A DNA stretch of 31,342 nucleotides. Origin: a virus. The notes below the pieces were generated by a model that ran no database searches, had not been told where the DNA came from, and saw nothing but the letters and a program-made list of their open reading frames with translations. A program made the position numbers and the translations under genes. The stretch covers positions 1-31,342 of IMG/VR virus record IMGVR_UViG_3300007734_000564; one strand, written 5' to 3'. Shown here one piece after another: positions 2,311 to 31,108 of this stretch. The stretch's first letter is position 1. Each line of letters begins with the position of its first letter.

Positions 2311-3146
2311 AATACCACCCATCTCGCGCCACCAGGCACGGTAACTACTACACCACCATTAATCGTAATTGGCCCAACGCTACAAGCTGATTTGTTAGTA
2401 GTCAGCGTATAGTTTGTAGTCACAATGAGGCTGTTTTCCTGAAATACTGTATCACCACCAGCACCAGTAGCACCGCCACCGATTGAACCCCATGCAGAGC
2501 CGTAACCCTCGAAGGTCGCTGTGGTTGTATTATACCTTACATATCCTGCACTTGGGGCTACATCGCGCTGTGCTGTTGTGCCAGAAGGTACTACTGTTGA
2601 TCCTGTTGTACCTGTAATGGGAGTAACTAAGTAGCTGTTTAATAACTGGAATCTTGTACCATCGTACTGTATAACGACTACTCGATTGGCAGTTAATGCA
2701 CCAGCAGTTAATGTTGTAGTGCCATTGGTGATAGCTTTAGCCCCTAGACCGTCTATGTTGATGGTTACATTAGTAGTATTGGTCGATCCAACGATAAAGG
2801 TGAACATATCGCCATTGGTATAAGCACCGTAAGTAGGTGTCATTACCCCTGTGATTACATCGCCAGTTCCAGCTACGGTTATTAGCTTGTTTACACCAGT
2901 TTGGAGTTGCTCAAACCTTACAGAATTACCAGCAGCAGTCCCAGCAGCCAATCCTGTGAGTTTAAATGACCCCATAGGTAGGTTAGTGGTGGGTGGCGAT
3001 TGCCCATCCCTTGTTACGCAAGTAGACAGCGCAGTAGCTAGATCAGCAGTCAAAGTATTGAATGTTGAATCTAGTATGTCTGTTCCTGCGACTACTGGCT
3101 GACCAGCAGTCAACGTATATGTTCCTACCCCATTAAAAGGTGGCAT
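2307..3146 (-). CDS. Tail fibre/tailspike N-terminal (virion-attaching) protein
   Basis: A 279-residue protein with ATG at 3146 preceded by GGAAGGG. The N-terminus (PFNGVGTYTL, then FNTLTADLATAL, SPPTTNLPMGSFKLTGL) is the usual phage fibre head region that docks on the tail. The remainder is a Gly/Thr/Val-rich beta protein. It ends with an ATGA overlap into the next fibre gene, so the two may assemble as one appendage. Upstream lies a plus-strand HNH gene, so expression of the fibre genes may need its own promoter or readthrough across that gene. Confidence 0.85.
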   Translation of the reverse strand: MPPFNGVGTYTLTAGQPVVAGTDILDSTFNTLTADLATALSTCVTRDGQSPPTTNLPMGSFKLTGLAAGTAAGNSVRFEQLQTGVNKLITVAGTGDVITGVMTPTYGAYTNGDMFTFIVGSTNTTNVTINIDGLGAKAITNGTTTLTAGALTANRVVVIQYDGTRFQLLNSYLVTPITGTTGSTVVPSGTTAQRDVAPSAGYVRYNTTTATFEGYGSAWGSIGGGATGAGGDTVFQENSLIVTTNYTLTTNKSACSVGPITINGGVVVTVPGGARWVVL

Positions 3147-3175
3147 TTGCTTTCCCTTCCATTATGTGCCATAAT
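3147..3175 (+). promoter_or_regulatory. Candidate sigma70 promoter for the plus-strand HNH gene
   Basis: TTGCTT at 3147-3152 and CATAAT at 3170-3175 are separated by 17 bases, 25 bases before the ATG at 3201. The -10 box matches the consensus at five of six positions and the -35 box at three. The -35 box begins one base beyond the first codon of the oppositely oriented fibre gene. Moderate-quality match only. Confidence 0.4.
3161..3175. repeat. Short inverted repeat between divergent genes
   Basis: ATTATG and CATAAT are perfect inverted arms around TGC. Each arm reads CATAAT on its own strand, so the element could hold two divergent -10 boxes or an operator. It lies in the 54-base gap between the minus-strand fibre gene and the plus-strand HNH gene. 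Confidence 0.4.
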
Positions 3176-3200
3176 ACCATTTTATGTACACGGTTAATAT

Positions 3201-3773
3201 ATGTCATATTTGATTGCACCCCCATTATACAGCACTTGGTGTGGAATGAAGTCTAGGTGTAACAATCCCAACAATCCACACTATCAGAATTATGGTGGTA
3301 GGGGCATTACAGTCTGTGCCGAATGGTCTATTAGCTATCATTCCTTCATTGCAGATATGGGGTTAAAGCCTGTCGGTACTACGCTAGACAGAATAGATAA
3401 CAACCAAGGGTACAGTAAATTTAATTGCAAGTGGTCTACACGCAAAGAACAACAGCACAACCGCAGAATTAACCGCTTTATTACAGTCGATAACGTAGTG
3501 TATAGAGTAGCGGATTTAGCTGAACAATCTGGGCTTAAACCAGATACCATTATTAGCCGATCAGAACGTGGGTTTGCACTACCAGATATATTAGCCAAGA
3601 CAATCTTTAGGGATTTAGCTGGGCTATCTTTGGGCGCACAAGCTAGTTCAATAGCGCGAAAGGCTCGCACACATTGCAAGTATGGGCATCCTTTTAGGAA
3701 TGGATTAAGAAGATGCAACATCTGTAATGCAGCCAGAGAAAGGAAGCGTACTCAGCTTAAAAGGGGTTACTGA
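3201..3773 (+). CDS. HNH-type homing endonuclease, free-standing
   Basis: A 190-residue protein and the only convincing plus-strand gene. The N-terminal 90 residues (YSTWCGMKSRCNN, YGGRGITVC, LDRIDNNQGYS, KWSTRKEQQHNRR) match a very common phage HNH-like endonuclease family. Residues about 95-120 (YRVADLAEQSGLKPDTIISR) look like a helix-turn-helix DNA-binding segment. The C-terminus has a CxxGHPF...CNIC zinc motif often fused to homing nucleases. It sits against the direction of all neighbours, between an internal virion gene and the fibre operon, as expected for a mobile homing gene. No good ribosome-binding site is visible before the ATG. Confidence 0.82.
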   Translation: MSYLIAPPLYSTWCGMKSRCNNPNNPHYQNYGGRGITVCAEWSISYHSFIADMGLKPVGTTLDRIDNNQGYSKFNCKWSTRKEQQHNRRINRFITVDNVVYRVADLAEQSGLKPDTIISRSERGFALPDILAKTIFRDLAGLSLGAQASSIARKARTHCKYGHPFRNGLRRCNICNAARERKRTQLKRGY

Positions 3774-3862
3774 ACAATTGAAGGCCATCGTTTAACCTCT
3801 TGTGTTATAATTAGAATGTGTCGATATTAACAACATTATTGGGTGTAGCGTTCTATTCATGG

Positions 3863-5518
3863 TTAATTTCCCTGATTAGAGCTTATCATGGCAGCAGACC
3901 CAGAAAGCAAGGGGTTAGCCTTCCTTATCGCATCGGCAAGCATCTGGGCTTGTTCTGGTCGTTTTGTAAGTATCGCAGAAGCAATATTACGGCCACCAGG
4001 AAGATAAGGTAGACTAGCAGTACCCAATCCGATAGCGGCAGGAACAAGCGCACCAACACCATAAGCAGCACCACCAGCACCAACTCCCAAGCCTATTCTT
4101 CCAGCCGTACCAGAATCAGGTACTTTGCTACCCAAGATATTCGTACCCTGTTCAGCTAGATCTTGCATTAAAGCATTTCCTGTAGCACTAGCACCCTTGC
4201 CTACTGACTTATCTTGTGCGCGTACAGCGGCAGCGAGTTGTGCAGGAGTAAACACCCCTTCCCTAGCACCAGCATTGGTAGAATTGGCTGCTTGGCGCAA
4301 TCTCACATAATTAGCATAGCCAGTATCAATAGCCTTTAATCTGTCTGCATACATCGGATTAGCGCGAATTAATGTTTGGCGCATGGAATCTAACGTACCA
4401 TTCAGAGCATCGCCTAGTTCCCTAGCATACGGATCTGGAGAACCTGAAAATGCCTTTGCTTTCTCACCTAGATGACCAGCAGCAATCTTAAAGGTTTCCC
4501 CTGTCATGTGACCATTAGGGCTTGCATGGTGCATTACCTCGCCCATAATGCGATTGTATGTTCCTTGTTCTTGTGGTGCTAGGCCAGATATAAGTTTTTG
4601 AAAATTATTCTTTTCGGCAAGCCATTGAGCATCTGGTACAAAACTAACATTAGGCAATACAGCATCATACGCATTACCCAACTTGGTTTTAACCTCAGTC
4701 ATTCCTTCTCTGCCGATAGCAGTTGACTTCTCACCTATAGGGTTTAACGCGCGATTCATGGCAGCAGTATTGAATTCTTCCTGTGCCTTACCTCTGCTAA
4801 ATCTGATAGCATCGCCAACAATAGGTAATGATTGTGCTTTTTCCTCTATCGAGTTCCACATACCGCCAAGCGTTTGACCTGGTGTAGGGGTAACTCCTTG
4901 GCGCAGTAAAGAAGCGACTTTCTCGTTAGTTTCTGGCCTAATTACCCTTGCACCACCAGCCAATAGCCCAGAAGTACCAGCACCGATCACAGTACCTTTA
5001 CCTGTTTCTATTGCTTTGTTAGCCCAATAGTCAGGTGCGTTTACATCTGTTTGTTCAGTAGCACCACCAACCGTGCCAGCAGCAGCACCAGCCTTAACAG
5101 CGTTTGCACCCCTAAGTACCATAGGTATCTTAGATGCTACAGCAAGATTGGTAGGGCTAAATACGTTTCCAGCTAGTCTAGCTACATCCGTACCCTGTAA
5201 GCCTGTGTTTGCAGCCTTATATTCAGCCTCATTAGCCTTGTTCATAGCTTGTACACGACTAGCCTCAGAGCCAAAGAAGTTGCTAACTGGATTAGGATAG
5301 TTACCGCCCAATGAAGTAACGGCCTCTAGTCCCTTGGGAAGCATGGAAGCAGCTTCGTTGATAGGGTCTATAGCACCATGAGCAAATCTGGATAGGGGCG
5401 ATTTTACTGGCCCTGTCTTAATGTCTATGGTTGTTCGTGGTGTAGGAGTGCCTTGCTCGGCTTCTTGTTCAGCCTCTAGCCTAGCCCTAAATTTAAATTT
5501 TTCTGATTCGTCAGACAT
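3863..5518 (-). CDS. Internal virion / DNA ejection protein
   Basis: A 551-residue protein with ATG at 5518 preceded by AAAGGAAG. The N-terminal 25 residues are charged, followed by a long Ala/Gly-rich region with membrane-like stretches (about 130-150, 175-190 and 475-505). The middle is helical, with many Gln, Ala and Asn residues. This pattern, and the position after another large internal protein and before the fibres, fits podoviral proteins ejected with DNA that form a conduit across the envelope. No enzyme motif was seen. The family cannot be named from sequence alone. Confidence 0.65.
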   Translation of the reverse strand: MSDESEKFKFRARLEAEQEAEQGTPTPRTTIDIKTGPVKSPLSRFAHGAIDPINEAASMLPKGLEAVTSLGGNYPNPVSNFFGSEASRVQAMNKANEAEYKAANTGLQGTDVARLAGNVFSPTNLAVASKIPMVLRGANAVKAGAAAGTVGGATEQTDVNAPDYWANKAIETGKGTVIGAGTSGLLAGGARVIRPETNEKVASLLRQGVTPTPGQTLGGMWNSIEEKAQSLPIVGDAIRFSRGKAQEEFNTAAMNRALNPIGEKSTAIGREGMTEVKTKLGNAYDAVLPNVSFVPDAQWLAEKNNFQKLISGLAPQEQGTYNRIMGEVMHHASPNGHMTGETFKIAAGHLGEKAKAFSGSPDPYARELGDALNGTLDSMRQTLIRANPMYADRLKAIDTGYANYVRLRQAANSTNAGAREGVFTPAQLAAAVRAQDKSVGKGASATGNALMQDLAEQGTNILGSKVPDSGTAGRIGLGVGAGGAAYGVGALVPAAIGLGTASLPYLPGGRNIASAILTKRPEQAQMLADAIRKANPLLSGSAAMISSNQGN

Positions 5519-7369
5519 TTATCTTCCTTTAGGGTTCGCAGCTTTGTATGCTTGGTAACGCGCTTCTTCTGCTGAATCAGAATAGGTTGCTGTTGGATTA
5601 GCAGTAACAGCAGGTTTATTCCATTTAGACATGATAGGAGAATCAAATATAGACCTATTTGCTTCTGGACTGTTAATCCATGCACGTTCCATTACTGATA
5701 AATCACCATCCTTTAGTGCTTGGTCGTAATGGTCACGGTAGAATTTCGCTTCAGCACCTTTTCTTTGTATAATGGCACGTTGCAGGTCATTGATAAATTT
5801 GTTAGCTTGTGGTGTATTGCCAAGTGATGCGAATGTCGATTTAGCGCGTACAGCATCGCCTTCGGTTTGTGGGCCTTTAGCCAAATTCAACTCGTCATTA
5901 ACCTGTCTAGCTTGGATTGCTCTAAATGTCTGCGAGTTCGATGCTAGTTGTTTGGCCTCATCACCCTTATACCCCATGCCAACCAATACTTCAGCAGCTT
6001 TAGCTTGAGCCTCAGTTCCCCAACCAGTTTTTTCGCTAATTGGTAAACTTTCTAACGCATCTAGCCTACCTGATACTAATTGACTAGCTTTAGCAGCATC
6101 TTGTATAGGTCTATAGCTATTCTTAATGAAGTCCTCATTGGTGTGCATCCTAGCACTACCCTCGACTTGGTTAATCATCTTGTTTTCGACTGTTGTCTTA
6201 CCTGCTGTTGCTATTTTTGTCCGACTGTCAACTACAGGTGTGTTAACTTCCCATTTGCCAGTATCAGGATTAAATCTCGCAAAATCAGTACCAAGATTAG
6301 CTGCTGCTGGTTGTTTAGGCTGCCTTGTACCTATAGGCTCTCCTGTGAGTGGGTTAAGCAGTCGGCCTTCTACAGCCACACCCTTACCGTGACCAGCCAT
6401 AGCAGCATCATTGACCCTGCGTTCTTTCACATAATCCATTAGCGATTTACCCAACTCAGGCTGATCGTTTTGGAAAGCAGCAGTTGCAGCAGCAATTACA
6501 GCAGCTTCGCTGTAGCCACCAGACTTGGGTACATTCCTAACTGTAGCAGCTTGTGTTGGTGCATACTGACCTTCACCCTTTAGCATTTGCGCTAATTGGC
6601 TAGGCTCTGGCTCTGGTCTAACGGTAACTGCTGGTAACATCCCATCTGCACTAGCTTGATTTGCTGCTGGTATAGCAGGGTTAATTGTTTGTCCGTTGAC
6701 TGCTTGTGGTATAGCAGATTGTGCATTAGCACCAGCTACAGCACCTTCTAAGGGCGCGTTACGCACCGCATTAGCCAATGGTACGTTATCGGATGCAGTC
6801 ATGTCCGATGGAGTACCCATGTACTGATTGTTCGTAGGATTAGCGTTTACATTGCCTGTAGCCTCTGCTGTAGGTGGCATATAAGCCTGTGCGCCATCAT
6901 TCGGCATAGCCGATGGGGTAGCCGATGGGGTAGGCGCAGCATCGAATAACGGTTGACCTTGTGCATCTGAGCCGTATCCACTAGCAAGCAATTCGTCTAG
7001 TTTTGCATTGGTTGCACCACTTTCAACTGCTGGTACTTGGACTTGATGTGCAGGTGTTCCTTGTCCCAAGTCTAGCCCAGCTACTTGCGCTGCGACATCT
7101 TTCATGCCTTGTTTTTTCTGGCCTACCAAAGCCTTGTATTGCTCTCTAGCAGCTTTCTCATCTTGGTAATTGTTGTATTGCATCAAAGCATCAGCTAGAT
7201 TCTGTGTCAATGCTGGCTTAACATACCATCCACCTACCATCTGTCCTTGGGCTGGCTTAAATGCAGTCCTGAGTGCGCGAGCAGTAGCAGCTTGCTCTCT
7301 AGCACCTAGTATCTCTAGGTCAGCACCGCTTAACTGACCATATTTTTCTGAATACTTATCAGTTGCCAT
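5519..7369 (-). CDS. Large internal virion protein
   Basis: A 616-residue protein that starts 11 bases inside the end of the previous gene. The N-terminus (GQMVGGWYVKPALTQNLADA, about residues 43-62) resembles the N-terminal region of internal virion proteins of other podophages, and the same segment is found in the short gene just upstream. The centre (about 125-290) is Ala/Pro/Asn/Thr-rich and probably disordered; the C-terminal half is helical, with LNLAKGPQTEGD and ERAWINSP. A role as a structural or ejected virion protein is inferred from its location between the PAPS-reductase-like gene and the ejection-like protein. Confidence 0.65.
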   Translation of the reverse strand: MATDKYSEKYGQLSGADLEILGAREQAATARALRTAFKPAQGQMVGGWYVKPALTQNLADALMQYNNYQDEKAAREQYKALVGQKKQGMKDVAAQVAGLDLGQGTPAHQVQVPAVESGATNAKLDELLASGYGSDAQGQPLFDAAPTPSATPSAMPNDGAQAYMPPTAEATGNVNANPTNNQYMGTPSDMTASDNVPLANAVRNAPLEGAVAGANAQSAIPQAVNGQTINPAIPAANQASADGMLPAVTVRPEPEPSQLAQMLKGEGQYAPTQAATVRNVPKSGGYSEAAVIAAATAAFQNDQPELGKSLMDYVKERRVNDAAMAGHGKGVAVEGRLLNPLTGEPIGTRQPKQPAAANLGTDFARFNPDTGKWEVNTPVVDSRTKIATAGKTTVENKMINQVEGSARMHTNEDFIKNSYRPIQDAAKASQLVSGRLDALESLPISEKTGWGTEAQAKAAEVLVGMGYKGDEAKQLASNSQTFRAIQARQVNDELNLAKGPQTEGDAVRAKSTFASLGNTPQANKFINDLQRAIIQRKGAEAKFYRDHYDQALKDGDLSVMERAWINSPEANRSIFDSPIMSKWNKPAVTANPTATYSDSAEEARYQAYKAANPKGR

Positions 7370-16274: not shown

Positions 16275-17165
16275 TTAGGCCTTCATGCAGCCTTGTAGGA
16301 ATCTAGCACTAACTACCAGGTTACCTTGGGTCAGAACTGGAATAACTACAGCGTCTTGGTTAACTGATCTCAACTCATCCATCATGGTCATGTTGGCATC
16401 ACGATGCACAACCCACTCAAGATAATCTGTGTTCAGGAAGTAGGCATGACTTGCTGGAATACCGCCAGAAGTATCAAAGAACACATCAGCACTCTTGTAC
16501 TTCATAGAGATCATACCGCCTGCACCGTTTTCATCAGAAGTATAACGCTTCAATGAAGTTTGGCTCTGTTCGTACATGGTGAAATAAATGTCATCCATAA
16601 CGATCATGTCAGGCATATCAGTACCACGAGTCAGTTTGAGCCACAATGGAAGCATTAGAGCCTCAATGGTGGATGCTGATGGGGTGATAGCTGAAACACC
16701 GTTTAGTGGTGCTGCTGCTGATTGCAGAATAGACTTCCAGAATGTCCAAGTTGTTGAATTGATACCACCTACAGTACCAGTTCCCAAATCAGATACTAGG
16801 GCTTGCAGACCGCCAATTTGGTTAGCAGCAGTTCCGTCCGAGTACATATCAGTAGAAAGACCGTTAGCCATTGAGCGCATAGCGTTCTTGACTTTAGCTT
16901 TGGTGAAGTTAATGATTCTGTTCTCGCCAGAGTTAGTACGCAGTTCCAAGCCAGATGCAGCTACGTTTACTGCTACTTGCCTCCAAGGGAACTCCGCACT
17001 TGTCAACACATCTACAGCATTGATGTTTAATACATCGAAGCCAGAGTAACGCTGATAAGTGGAGTTAGCTTGGTAATCAAGTGGTTGAACGATGGTCAAA
17101 CCACCATCTTCCACACGAGTACGGCCTTTTTCTGTCAAACGTCTGAACAGAGCATTGTGTTTTGT
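16275..17165 (-). CDS. Major capsid protein, exon 2 (297 codons with stop)
   Basis: This is the bulk of the coat protein, from TKHNALFRRLTEKGRTR to the terminal LVVSARFLQGCMKA. An uninterrupted frame continues upstream to 17447, but those residues read through the intron and overlap the endonuclease gene in another frame, so they are not capsid. Splicing to exon 1 (17931-18023) gives a 327-residue protein of usual size for this capsid group. A long helix-strand pattern (SGLELRTNSGENRIINFTKA, SSRD-like loops, DMPDMIVMDDIYFTMYEQSQ) and the position between scaffold and decoration gene support the identity. The product forms the icosahedral shell. Confidence 0.88.
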   Translation of the reverse strand, partial: TKHNALFRRLTEKGRTRVEDGGLTIVQPLDYQANSTYQRYSGFDVLNINAVDVLTSAEFPWRQVAVNVAASGLELRTNSGENRIINFTKAKVKNAMRSMANGLSTDMYSDGTAANQIGGLQALVSDLGTGTVGGINSTTWTFWKSILQSAAAPLNGVSAITPSASTIEALMLPLWLKLTRGTDMPDMIVMDDIYFTMYEQSQTSLKRYTSDENGAGGMISMKYKSADVFFDTSGGIPASHAYFLNTDYLEWVVHRDANMTMMDELRSVNQDAVVIPVLTQGNLVVSARFLQGCMKA

Positions 17166-17930
17166 CGATCTTGTTATCGCACGGCTCTTTATCCGTACTT
17201 CTAATACTTTCATATTAGTCCAGACTATATCATCATTGTTTTTTAGCTCTTTTAGCTGCGCTAATCTGTGCGCAATGTTCAGGTGTAAACACCCTGCCTT
17301 TAAGAGCCCTGCTACGCTTGTCATTCGCTTCTGGTGTCCATCTGTTGCCACGCTCTTTATGCGCATTTGCAACACCTTTGCGAATACTCTCTGGACTAAG
17401 TCCTTGTGATTGTTCGTGTGCGTTATACAGTTTGCCAAGCGAAGCATAATGATTTATCCATTTTTGCTCTGTTTCGCAACGTGCGCCTCGATGTGAGTAT
17501 GTTCCTTCTTCTAGTGGTTTGATACTAAACGCACCTTCTCCATACTTCAACCAATCAGCAGTTAACTTAACCGCATGATGCTTGTTATTCCTACACAAAC
17601 ATCTATGTTCCCGAAGTCGCTTACTTAGCTTACTACTTGTAACACCTATGTAAGCAAAACCGTTAACACTACATTCTAAAGCATATATAACAGCCATTCG
17701 GAATTCTCCTCTCTGGTAAAAAACAATGTTCCGCGCTCTTGGGATTATACGCCAGTTCTTGGCTTTTGTCCTAGTCGTTGAACCTTCAACCTATCCCTAG
17801 GTCGCTTGGCTGCTGATTGCCCAATCTTGATTATTTTTAACATTCGCATTTTCGATTACTCAATCTGCTGTAGTTAATCAAGCTATAAGGGGTTTCCAGC
17901 ATTTCACGGAATTTATTCAGGTCTAAATCA
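17166..17930 (-). ncRNA. Group I self-splicing intron in the capsid gene
   Basis: The 765-nt intron pairs as a group I ribozyme. P1: exon CAGGTT (17936-17931) with GACCTG (17923-17918), giving the expected U-G pair at the 5' splice site. P3: AATGTT (17844-17839) with AACATT (17730-17725). P4 region: TTGGGC...GCCAA near 17824-17804. P7: GACTA (17776-17772) with TAGTC (17227-17223). P8: GTTTTTT (17724-17718) with AAAAAAC (17244-17238). The intron ends in G at 17166. The first intron codon is TGA, so unspliced RNA would stop after 31 codons. The endonuclease gene fills the P8 loop. Subgroup not assigned. Confidence 0.9.
17233..17697 (-). CDS. Intron-encoded GIY-YIG homing endonuclease
   Basis: A 154-residue protein with ATG at 17697, eight bases after AGGAG. 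The GIY-YIG nuclease domain occupies about 1-90: IYA at 4-6, YIG at 16-18, candidate catalytic arginine R27, and glutamate E77 in ETEQKWI. The C-terminus carries a NUMOD3-like DNA-binding motif (GRVFTPEHCAQISAAK). The last codons form the 3' strand of intron helix P8 and the stop lies in the J8/7 joining segment. It likely cuts intronless capsid alleles and so spreads the intron. The nuclease domain looks intact. Confidence 0.9.
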   Translation of the reverse strand: MAVIYALECSVNGFAYIGVTSSKLSKRLREHRCLCRNNKHHAVKLTADWLKYGEGAFSIKPLEEGTYSHRGARCETEQKWINHYASLGKLYNAHEQSQGLSPESIRKGVANAHKERGNRWTPEANDKRSRALKGRVFTPEHCAQISAAKRAKKQ

Positions 17931-18023
17931 AACCTGATCGGCCACTTCTTTCGAGTGGGCGCGATAAGTCGTGGAAGCTAGTTCACTCCACGCTGTGATA
18001 ATGGTGCTTGCTGGTGATGCCAT
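17931..18023 (-). CDS. Major capsid protein, exon 1 (31 codons)
   Basis: ATG at 18023 with AAGGAG eight bases upstream begins a 31-residue segment, MASPASTIITAWSELASTTY then RAHSKEVADQV, after which the frame meets TGA, the first intron codon. Joining to 17165 gives ...KEVADQV-TKHNALFRRL, in frame. The N-terminal helix fits a coat protein. It lies 11 bases downstream of the scaffold stop. Confidence 0.88.
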
Positions 18024-18034
18024 AATTTATCTCC

Positions 18035-19024
18035 TTAATACATTCCAAGTTCTTTAGCTTTGGAACGAATGGTATCTTCGATTGAGCCTACCGCAGCTTG
18101 AGCAGGTATTACTCCCCTGGTTCTCACGTTTGCGCTAGACAGTTTTTTTGCTTCTATAGCCTTGGTAGCTGCTTTAGATCGAATCTCTTTTTGCTGTTCT
18201 GCAAGTAGAGTTGCCCTAATCGCTGGGTCTGCCCATATAGCTGTTTCGTAAGCCTCTTGAAGTGATTTAGAAGCGTTTCCCTCTAATAGAGTAGCCATCC
18301 TATCTCTAACTGCTTCAAAATGCTCATTCTTTGCTGCAAAGGCTGCTATATCGTTGTTTAGCGATGCTGCCTCACGTTCCTGCATATTCTGCATCTGTTG
18401 AGCCTGTTGAGCCTCAAACTGTTGCAATCTGTTCTGCAAGTGTCCTATCTCAGGATTAGCTTGCGAGTTATTCTGTTGATCGAACCATTCGGGATTAATA
18501 CCGTATGATTGAATAATGTGTTGAATTACCGCTACTTTCTGTGCTGGTGATCCATAACGTAAATTATGGTCGGTCTGCATCAGTCCAGTAATAGCCTGTT
18601 CTGGTGTAGTGCCTATCTTCTGGATAGTATCTCTGAATGGGGCAAATGCCTTCTCGTATGTGTTACCACGTTCAGCAGCTACCTTGTAATGTTCTACACC
18701 TCTGTGTATATCGCCTTCTCGTCTAGCAATCTCTGCCTGTATATCTGGTGGCAAGGTTGCAAACTTGGCTTGTTGTTCCTTCTTCCATGAAGATGGGGCG
18801 CGTACTGTACTTTCTGGTTCTGCATCAGGTATCGATTCTGAAGCCTCTGAAGGGGTCGTAAGCGCATTATCTTCTGAACTAGCTACCACAGGGGCAGATT
18901 CAGTTACTTCCTTCTCTTGAGCCTCTGGTTCGTTCCTAGACTGTATCTCAGCCCAAGCACTACCTATTGTTTCATCCATCGTTGGTGCAACTTCGTCTTT
19001 CTGGGTTTCCAGATCTTCACTCAT
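18035..19024 (-). CDS. Capsid scaffolding protein
   Basis: A 329-residue acidic, helical protein. Residues 1-80 are Glu/Ser/Pro-rich and probably disordered; about 85-130 (SSWKKEQQAKFATLPPDIQAE...) is a motif common in phage scaffold proteins of this type; a Gln/Asn-rich coiled coil (NRLQQFEAQQAQQMQNMQ) follows; the C-terminus is basic and helical, as expected for contact with coat protein. It sits directly before the major capsid gene and overlaps the previous gene by eight bases. It would be removed from the shell during maturation. Confidence 0.85.
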   Translation of the reverse strand: MSEDLETQKDEVAPTMDETIGSAWAEIQSRNEPEAQEKEVTESAPVVASSEDNALTTPSEASESIPDAEPESTVRAPSSWKKEQQAKFATLPPDIQAEIARREGDIHRGVEHYKVAAERGNTYEKAFAPFRDTIQKIGTTPEQAITGLMQTDHNLRYGSPAQKVAVIQHIIQSYGINPEWFDQQNNSQANPEIGHLQNRLQQFEAQQAQQMQNMQEREAASLNNDIAAFAAKNEHFEAVRDRMATLLEGNASKSLQEAYETAIWADPAIRATLLAEQQKEIRSKAATKAIEAKKLSSANVRTRGVIPAQAAVGSIEDTIRSKAKELGMY

Positions 19025-30386: not shown

Positions 30387-30623
30387 TTACCTCAAAATAA
30401 TTTGTGCTTCAAGGTAAGATATAATAGTCTTGAGCCTTAATATCTCGCTGTCAGCATCGTCAGCACTGTAAACCAAGTTTTTATTCTGGATTAACAGTTG
30501 ATAGTTCTCAGCCTTCAATTCTTCTATATCATCCTTGAGTTTCAACACATCCTCCCTCAGATACTCGATATGAGTATCCTTGGAGATTTTCTTTTTGTGA
30601 TGTGATTCTTTTGGTTTGCTCAT
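30387..30623 (-). CDS. Coiled-coil protein
   Basis: A 78-residue basic-to-acidic helical protein with long heptads (EDVLKLKDDIEELKAENYQL). ATGA overlap with the upstream stop. Function unknown. Confidence 0.6.
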   Translation of the reverse strand: MSKPKESHHKKKISKDTHIEYLREDVLKLKDDIEELKAENYQLLIQNKNLVYSADDADSEILRLKTIISYLEAQIILR

Positions 30624-31108
30624 GCGTTCAACCCCTCTCCGTTAAGTTTATGCCACTTACAATGGCATTTTGGACATAAGTACCTGACTATTAAAGGAAG
30701 GGCATAGTCATCATGATGTCCATGCAACCTGTCATGATTAATACCGCAGTCCACACATTGTGTTCCTTTGGTTAATTTACCACTTTTAATTGCGTTGCCA
30801 ACCAACAATTGTGCAGAACGTTTAATAACATTTGATTCTGCCCATTTTGCTTTTGCTTTTCTAGCGACAGCCTTACCTTCATCGGTCTGAGAGTAGTGTT
30901 TATTAGCCTCTATTCTATTAGGTAAATTTGCCCTACTTCTGTCATACTCCAGATAATAGTCGTGATTCTTTGTTATATTATCTTTTACATCTTTCTTGGC
31001 ACAGGATTTACACTTACCAAGATGACCGTCAGCCATTCCAGAATGTTTATAAAACTCCGTTAACAACTGACTTTCACCACACTTAAAACAAACTTTTGAA
31101 TCATGCAT
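30620..31108 (-). CDS. HNH-type zinc-finger protein
   Basis: A 162-residue protein. CFKC (7-10) and CKSC (33-36) form an N-terminal zinc finger. The C-terminus has CVDCGINHDRLHGHHDDYA followed by YLCPKCHCKWHK, an HNH-like site with paired CxxC motifs. Such proteins in phage early regions are likely DNA-binding or nicking nucleases. The gene follows the extended -10 promoter at 31138-31146. Confidence 0.75.
   Translation of the reverse strand: MHDSKVCFKCGESQLLTEFYKHSGMADGHLGKCKSCAKKDVKDNITKNHDYYLEYDRSRANLPNRIEANKHYSQTDEGKAVARKAKAKWAESNVIKRSAQLLVGNAIKSGKLTKGTQCVDCGINHDRLHGHHDDYALPLIVRYLCPKCHCKWHKLNGEGLNA

Follow-up and report, generated by a model that had tools for sequence, protein, structure and literature searches.

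In an uncultured tailed phage, the major capsid gene appears, almost certainly, to be interrupted by a mobile self-splicing group I intron that has homed into the boundary between codons 31 and 32. The gene is in the window, i.e. the whole stretch of DNA that was analysed, a viral contig record of 31,342 bases. Sequence evidence, at the nucleotide and amino acid levels, establishes the RNA fold and the precise intron boundaries, and shows intron-free alleles and a conserved nuclease; splicing and homing of the capsid intron are what we infer from them. All computable refuting tests set by an earlier, sequence-only reading of this DNA came out in favor of the intron, and this supports its presence. 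Unless otherwise stated, features described below are on the minus strand of the window.

The capsid exons

Exon 1 of the capsid gene (positions 17931–18023) has 31 codons, MASPASTIITAWSELASTTYRAHSKEVADQV, and its translated sequence is identical to that of the uninterrupted genes in the contigs L003, L004 and L005. A ribosome-binding site, AAGGAG, can be read directly at positions 18036–18031. The exon ends with GCC GAT CAG GTT, and a TGA codon is found right behind GTT. Exon 2 (positions 16275–17165) has 296 codons and a stop codon. Conceptual joining of the two exons yields a 327 amino acid chain that reads ...ADQV-TKHN... at the junction; the predicted exon junction sequence when spliced is GATCAGGTT followed by ACAAAACAC. 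The sequence-only reading had proposed that exon 1 has its own ribosome-binding site and is followed by TGA, and that splicing restores the frame, and both proposals hold.

The spliced product has a profile match to PHROG 9953, “major head protein”, over residues 10–324 (E-value = 2.1e-79). It aligns without a gap through residues 25–40, as had been anticipated for related capsids. The portal gene is upstream of the capsid gene and the terminase gene is farther upstream, a gene order that makes the capsid locus consistent with a head module.

Intron boundaries and fold

The intron is 765 nt long (positions 17166–17930) and ends with a 3′ terminal G at position 17166. A search of both strands of the whole window with Rfam models gives a match to the group I intron family RF00028 at positions 18010–17201 on the minus strand (62.7 bits versus a cut-off of 50, E-value = 7.7e-14). 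The E-value rules out a chance match. The match spans all 253 model positions, and RF00028 is the only RNA family above its cut-off on this strand. The covariance search proposed along with the sequence-only reading thus gives a match over the cut-off.

The P1 5′ strand, TCAGGTT, lies in exon 1 (positions 17931–17937), and its final U is in the u.G pair at the splice site. Its partner, GACCTGA, is the internal guide sequence (positions 17917–17923). The P3 strands are at positions 17905–17911 (5′) and 17729–17735 (3′); both these and the guide are defined by a comparison of helices in three versions of the intron, described below. P4 (positions 17896–17901 and 17811–17816), P7, the guanosine-binding helix (positions 17772–17776 and, for the 3′ strand TAGTC, 17223–17227), and the 5′ strand of P8, CATTGTTTTTT (positions 17718–17728), are placed by the Rfam match together with the helix comparison. 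The 3′ strand of P8, AAAAAACAATG, is at positions 17234–17244 and doubles as the final codons of the nuclease gene. A P9 hairpin is at positions 17201–17218. P1, P3, P4, P7 and P8 had already been drawn in the sequence-only reading, and all of them pair as drawn; in addition P6a, P7.1, P7.2, P9 and P9.1 can be drawn. The P7.1 and P7.2 hairpins follow P7 and precede the P3 3′ strand; both are paired apart from one broken cell, and they show compensatory changes. Because these two hairpins are present, the intron probably belongs to subgroup IA. A P10 pairing is weak when judged by eye, and none is claimed.

Intron-free alleles

A scan of IMG/VR with the spliced protein yielded 36 loci encoding relatives. 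In L003, L004 and L005 the capsid gene is uninterrupted, with nt sequence identities of 95.2%, 95.1% and 92.6% over 983 nt, and the alignments to the spliced gene have no gap at the junction. The alignment of the window with the L005 contig breaks off at position 17165 and restarts at 17932; the L005 contig is continuous across the intron site, with one mismatching base between the aligned blocks. This base, at the −1 position, is T where the intron is present and A in L003–L009. Directly before the junction, intron-bearing alleles therefore have the codon GTT, and the seven intron-free relatives closest to them have GTA. No match to RF00028 is found in the nearest intron-free records. A second contig, L034, carries the intron with one difference in 765 nt.

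Near the site, the intron-bearing allele differs from all of L003–L005 at −28, −13 and −1, all upstream; on the downstream side, exon 2 shows no difference from L003 and L004 in its first 118 nt. The sites are too few for this pattern to be more than suggestive of a co-conversion tract.

Divergent orthologues and compensatory changes

A more divergent version of the intron, 760 nt long, interrupts the same V|T boundary in L040 (positions 2767–3526). Its amino acid sequence identity to the window is 73% in capsid exon 2 and 61% in the nuclease. L241 (intron at positions 1741–2506) and L243 carry a third version, also at this boundary. The u.G at the 5′ splice site is common to all three versions, and the introns end in ATCG, ATTG and ATTG. 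It should be noted that the window, L040 and L241 also share a TGA that is in frame and comes immediately after the 5′ splice site (window positions 17930–17928).

Ten helices were compared across the three versions. Canonical pairs are found in 165 of 168 cells, and 24 of 56 helix pairs, some in P1 and P8, have changed on both sides and are still paired. In a control in which the 3′ strands were slid by 1–3 bases, 54–76 cells are paired and 2–4 pairs are double-changed; since the helix set was hand-drawn from these same sequences, the control exaggerates the contrast in cells paired. The double changes are hard to explain other than by a conserved pairing. In P1, exon TCAGGTT versus AACGTT is accompanied by guide GACCTGA versus GACGTT, a compensatory change seen in L040 and L241. 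In P8, five of the seven compared pairs are changed on both sides, despite the 3′ strand also coding for the end of the nuclease, and in P9 this applies to four of six pairs. P4 and P7 are invariant in the three versions, and covariation is therefore uninformative for them.

The RF00028 match at 62.7 bits, the intron-free alleles and the divergent orthologues with compensatory changes together bear out the proposal of a group I intron in the major capsid gene. The whole introns of L040 and L241 score under the Rfam gathering cut-off (the L040 core is found at E-value = 1.5e-11), so default annotation would overlook capsid introns with long P8 open reading frames.

Many viral contigs are fragments, and one may ask whether the intron is degenerate and splicing-dead, or an assembly artefact, so that the capsid gene is broken and either a 390 amino acid frame or nothing is made. 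This appears very improbable. Assembly noise was rejected since the intron is present on the independent contigs L034, L040, L241 and L243. Against a splicing-dead element, the helices, the guide, the terminal G and the reading frames have been kept through compensatory change, the nuclease is under purifying selection, and the essential capsid gene is intact apart from the intron.

The nuclease and its overlap with the ribozyme

The P8 loop contains an open reading frame of 154 aa (positions 17233–17697) with a ribosome-binding site, AGGAG, read directly at positions 17706–17710, also in the loop. It encodes a GIY-YIG homing endonuclease (Pfam PF01541, 38.2 bits versus a cut-off of 22.6) and has a profile match to PHROG 314. 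Residues Y16, G18, R27, H31 and E75 are invariant in the nuclease alignment, and among solved structures the best relative is the I-TevI catalytic domain (1mk0, E-value = 0.005). Between L040 and L241, dN is 0.154 and dS is 1.38, which indicates purifying selection and a nuclease that is kept functional. A scan of bacterial and archaeal genomes found no relatives of the nuclease and hence points to no host.

The nuclease gene had been described as filling the P8 loop with its final codons forming the P8 strand, and the positions of the open reading frame (17697–17233) and of the P8 3′ strand (17234–17244) agree with this. The placement of its stop codon in J8/7 stands in part: the TGA (positions 17235–17233) straddles the border of P8 and J8/7, with the A in J8/7 and the U and G within the last two P8 pairs. 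In L040 and L241 the stop codon is TAG, and this is within the P7 3′ strand.

The 390-residue frame

A gene caller would take the capsid gene to be a 390 amino acid frame at positions 16275–17447, which is open and has an ATG start. As a real alternative N-terminus of the capsid, rather than an artefact of reading through the intron, this frame is scarcely credible. For its first 94 residues, the only significant matches are to intron copies. Exon 1 is matched by about 30 capsid homologues whose sequence extends to the N-terminus; the upstream frame is matched by none of them and moreover overlaps the nuclease gene, P8, P7 and P9. The 390 amino acid frame was therefore rejected as the genuine N-terminus, in agreement with the sequence-only reading, which had called it false. 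The capsid annotation of this phage group is thereby corrected, as automatic calls give the false 390-residue protein and drop exon 1.

Proposed splicing and homing

In the capsid transcript, exon 1 would pair with the guide sequence to form P1. Attack by guanosine would follow the U of GTT at the 5′ splice site, and the released exon would then attack behind the terminal G at position 17166, restoring the 327-residue capsid. The TGA behind the 5′ splice site may halt ribosomes ahead of the ribozyme. Translation of the nuclease would start from the ribosome-binding site that the P8 loop provides, and the protein would cleave intron-free capsid alleles of co-infecting relatives close to the junction. 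Repair would copy the intron plus some exon flank into the cut allele, and the co-copied flank would include the U required for splicing (GTT here versus GTA in intron-free relatives).

It is also conceivable, but unlikely, that the intron splices and is fixed and vertically inherited, i.e. is not currently homing; this reading competes with the homing part only. All versions with this nuclease are at one homologous site, and the nuclease (61%) and capsid exon 2 (73%) diverge together, as vertical inheritance would have it. However, the distribution is patchy, with the nearest relatives (92.6%–95% nt identity) lacking the intron, and the nuclease frame is kept under purifying selection. These observations favor a homing intron. 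The set of intron-bearing alleles, intron-free alleles and divergent orthologues offers clean natural material on homing in a highly expressed essential gene.

Host genes and overlap in the intron lineage

A scan with a core pattern gave at least 120 contig stretches (L044–L163), and a P7 3′ strand can be recognised in 117 introns among them. The sample is biased: the pattern was derived from the window itself, the set of contigs was not dereplicated, a small number of loci appear twice in the counts, and endonuclease open reading frames make up some of the stretches. Among the matches listed, 19 of the 117 introns have an open reading frame of at least 90 aa that starts downstream of the P7 5′ strand. 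In 16 of the 19 its end falls in the interval from 25 nt ahead of the P7 3′ strand to 8 nt inside it, that is, it terminates in P8, J8/7 or P7. Overlap of nuclease and ribozyme is thus the rule in the sampled lineage, and the idea that it is exceptional was rejected.

Exon stretches are readable for 109 introns, and roughly 40 of these, among the matches listed in this biased sample, are in major capsid genes, from about ten PHROG families (13 matches to phrog_1328, 12 to phrog_267, 9 to phrog_1357 and about ten to smaller families). Major capsid is thereby the commonest identifiable type of host gene in the listed sample. Other host genes encode DNA polymerase, RNA polymerase beta subunit, single-strand binding protein, tail proteins and portal. 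The most similar intron cores among annotated isolates lie within or next to genes for RNA polymerase beta subunit, DNA polymerase and transglycosylase. A preference of the lineage for capsid genes, with the nucleases perhaps acting as weapons that cut the capsid genes of co-infecting relatives, is a tentative suggestion.

L107 displays a compact group I intron without an open reading frame (RF00028, 80.6 bits) in a distantly related capsid gene of PHROG 9953. It is near a YSG motif, on the reverse strand around positions 5700–5970, and the L107 match is at positions 4982–5277 on the minus strand. Its site differs from that in the window; capsid genes of the PHROG 9953 family have thus been entered more than once.

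Comparison with known systems

The T4 td intron, like that of the window, is a phage group I intron with a GIY-YIG endonuclease, and the window nuclease domain aligns to I-TevI (1mk0/1ln0, E-value = 0.005–0.009). The td intron interrupts the thymidylate synthase gene and has its open reading frame in a loop other than P8, whereas that of the window is in P8.

In mycobacteriophage LittleE (Cluster J) the major capsid gene contains a probable group I intron, which is 819 bp long and carries a homing endonuclease gene; removal of the intron was proven by RT-PCR and protein N-terminal sequence, and intron-free relatives exist (PMC3706429). The capsid-gene location, the homing endonuclease gene and the intron-free relatives are shared with the window, but removal was seen in RNA in LittleE and splicing is inferred in the window. 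The capsid family and the intron sequence are also different, and the LittleE nuclease is LAGLIDADG-related and on the opposite strand, unlike the GIY-YIG nuclease of the window. A capsid-gene intron in lactococcal phage Tuc2009 is cited in the LittleE report (PMC3706429).

In bacterial group I introns, endonuclease open reading frames can reach into core sequence (PMC3984707, Fig. 2b). The overlap is of the same kind as in the window, where it involves the P8 3′ strand, and in L040 and L241 it involves P7 as well. Capsid introns and nuclease–ribozyme overlap are therefore already known, and the window adds another case. The novelty that the sequence-only reading had seen in a capsid intron with this overlap does not hold, as both are published (PMC3706429, PMC3984707) and both are common in the sampled lineage. 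The literature searched contained no paper on the window's own intron or on a preference for capsid genes. For Phi-PA3, interference of an intron-encoded nuclease with a co-infecting phage has been shown (PMC11620839). The window likewise has a phage intron-encoded nuclease, and interference by it is a possibility.

Other observations on the contig and a relative

Downstream of its portal gene, the close relative G003 contains an additional 1.8 kb (L255, positions 3384–5203), with small open reading frames and a repeat-rich extension of the adjoining open reading frame. A search of this insertion for an intron gave no RNA family match. G003 also contains, with 88% identity, the stretch at window positions 3201–3773, which on the plus strand, opposite to the phage genes, carries an HNH endonuclease gene (PHROG 3377). 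An endonuclease-like gene (PHROG 2340) is found at window positions 30620–31108 on the minus strand, with a weaker match to endonuclease VII.
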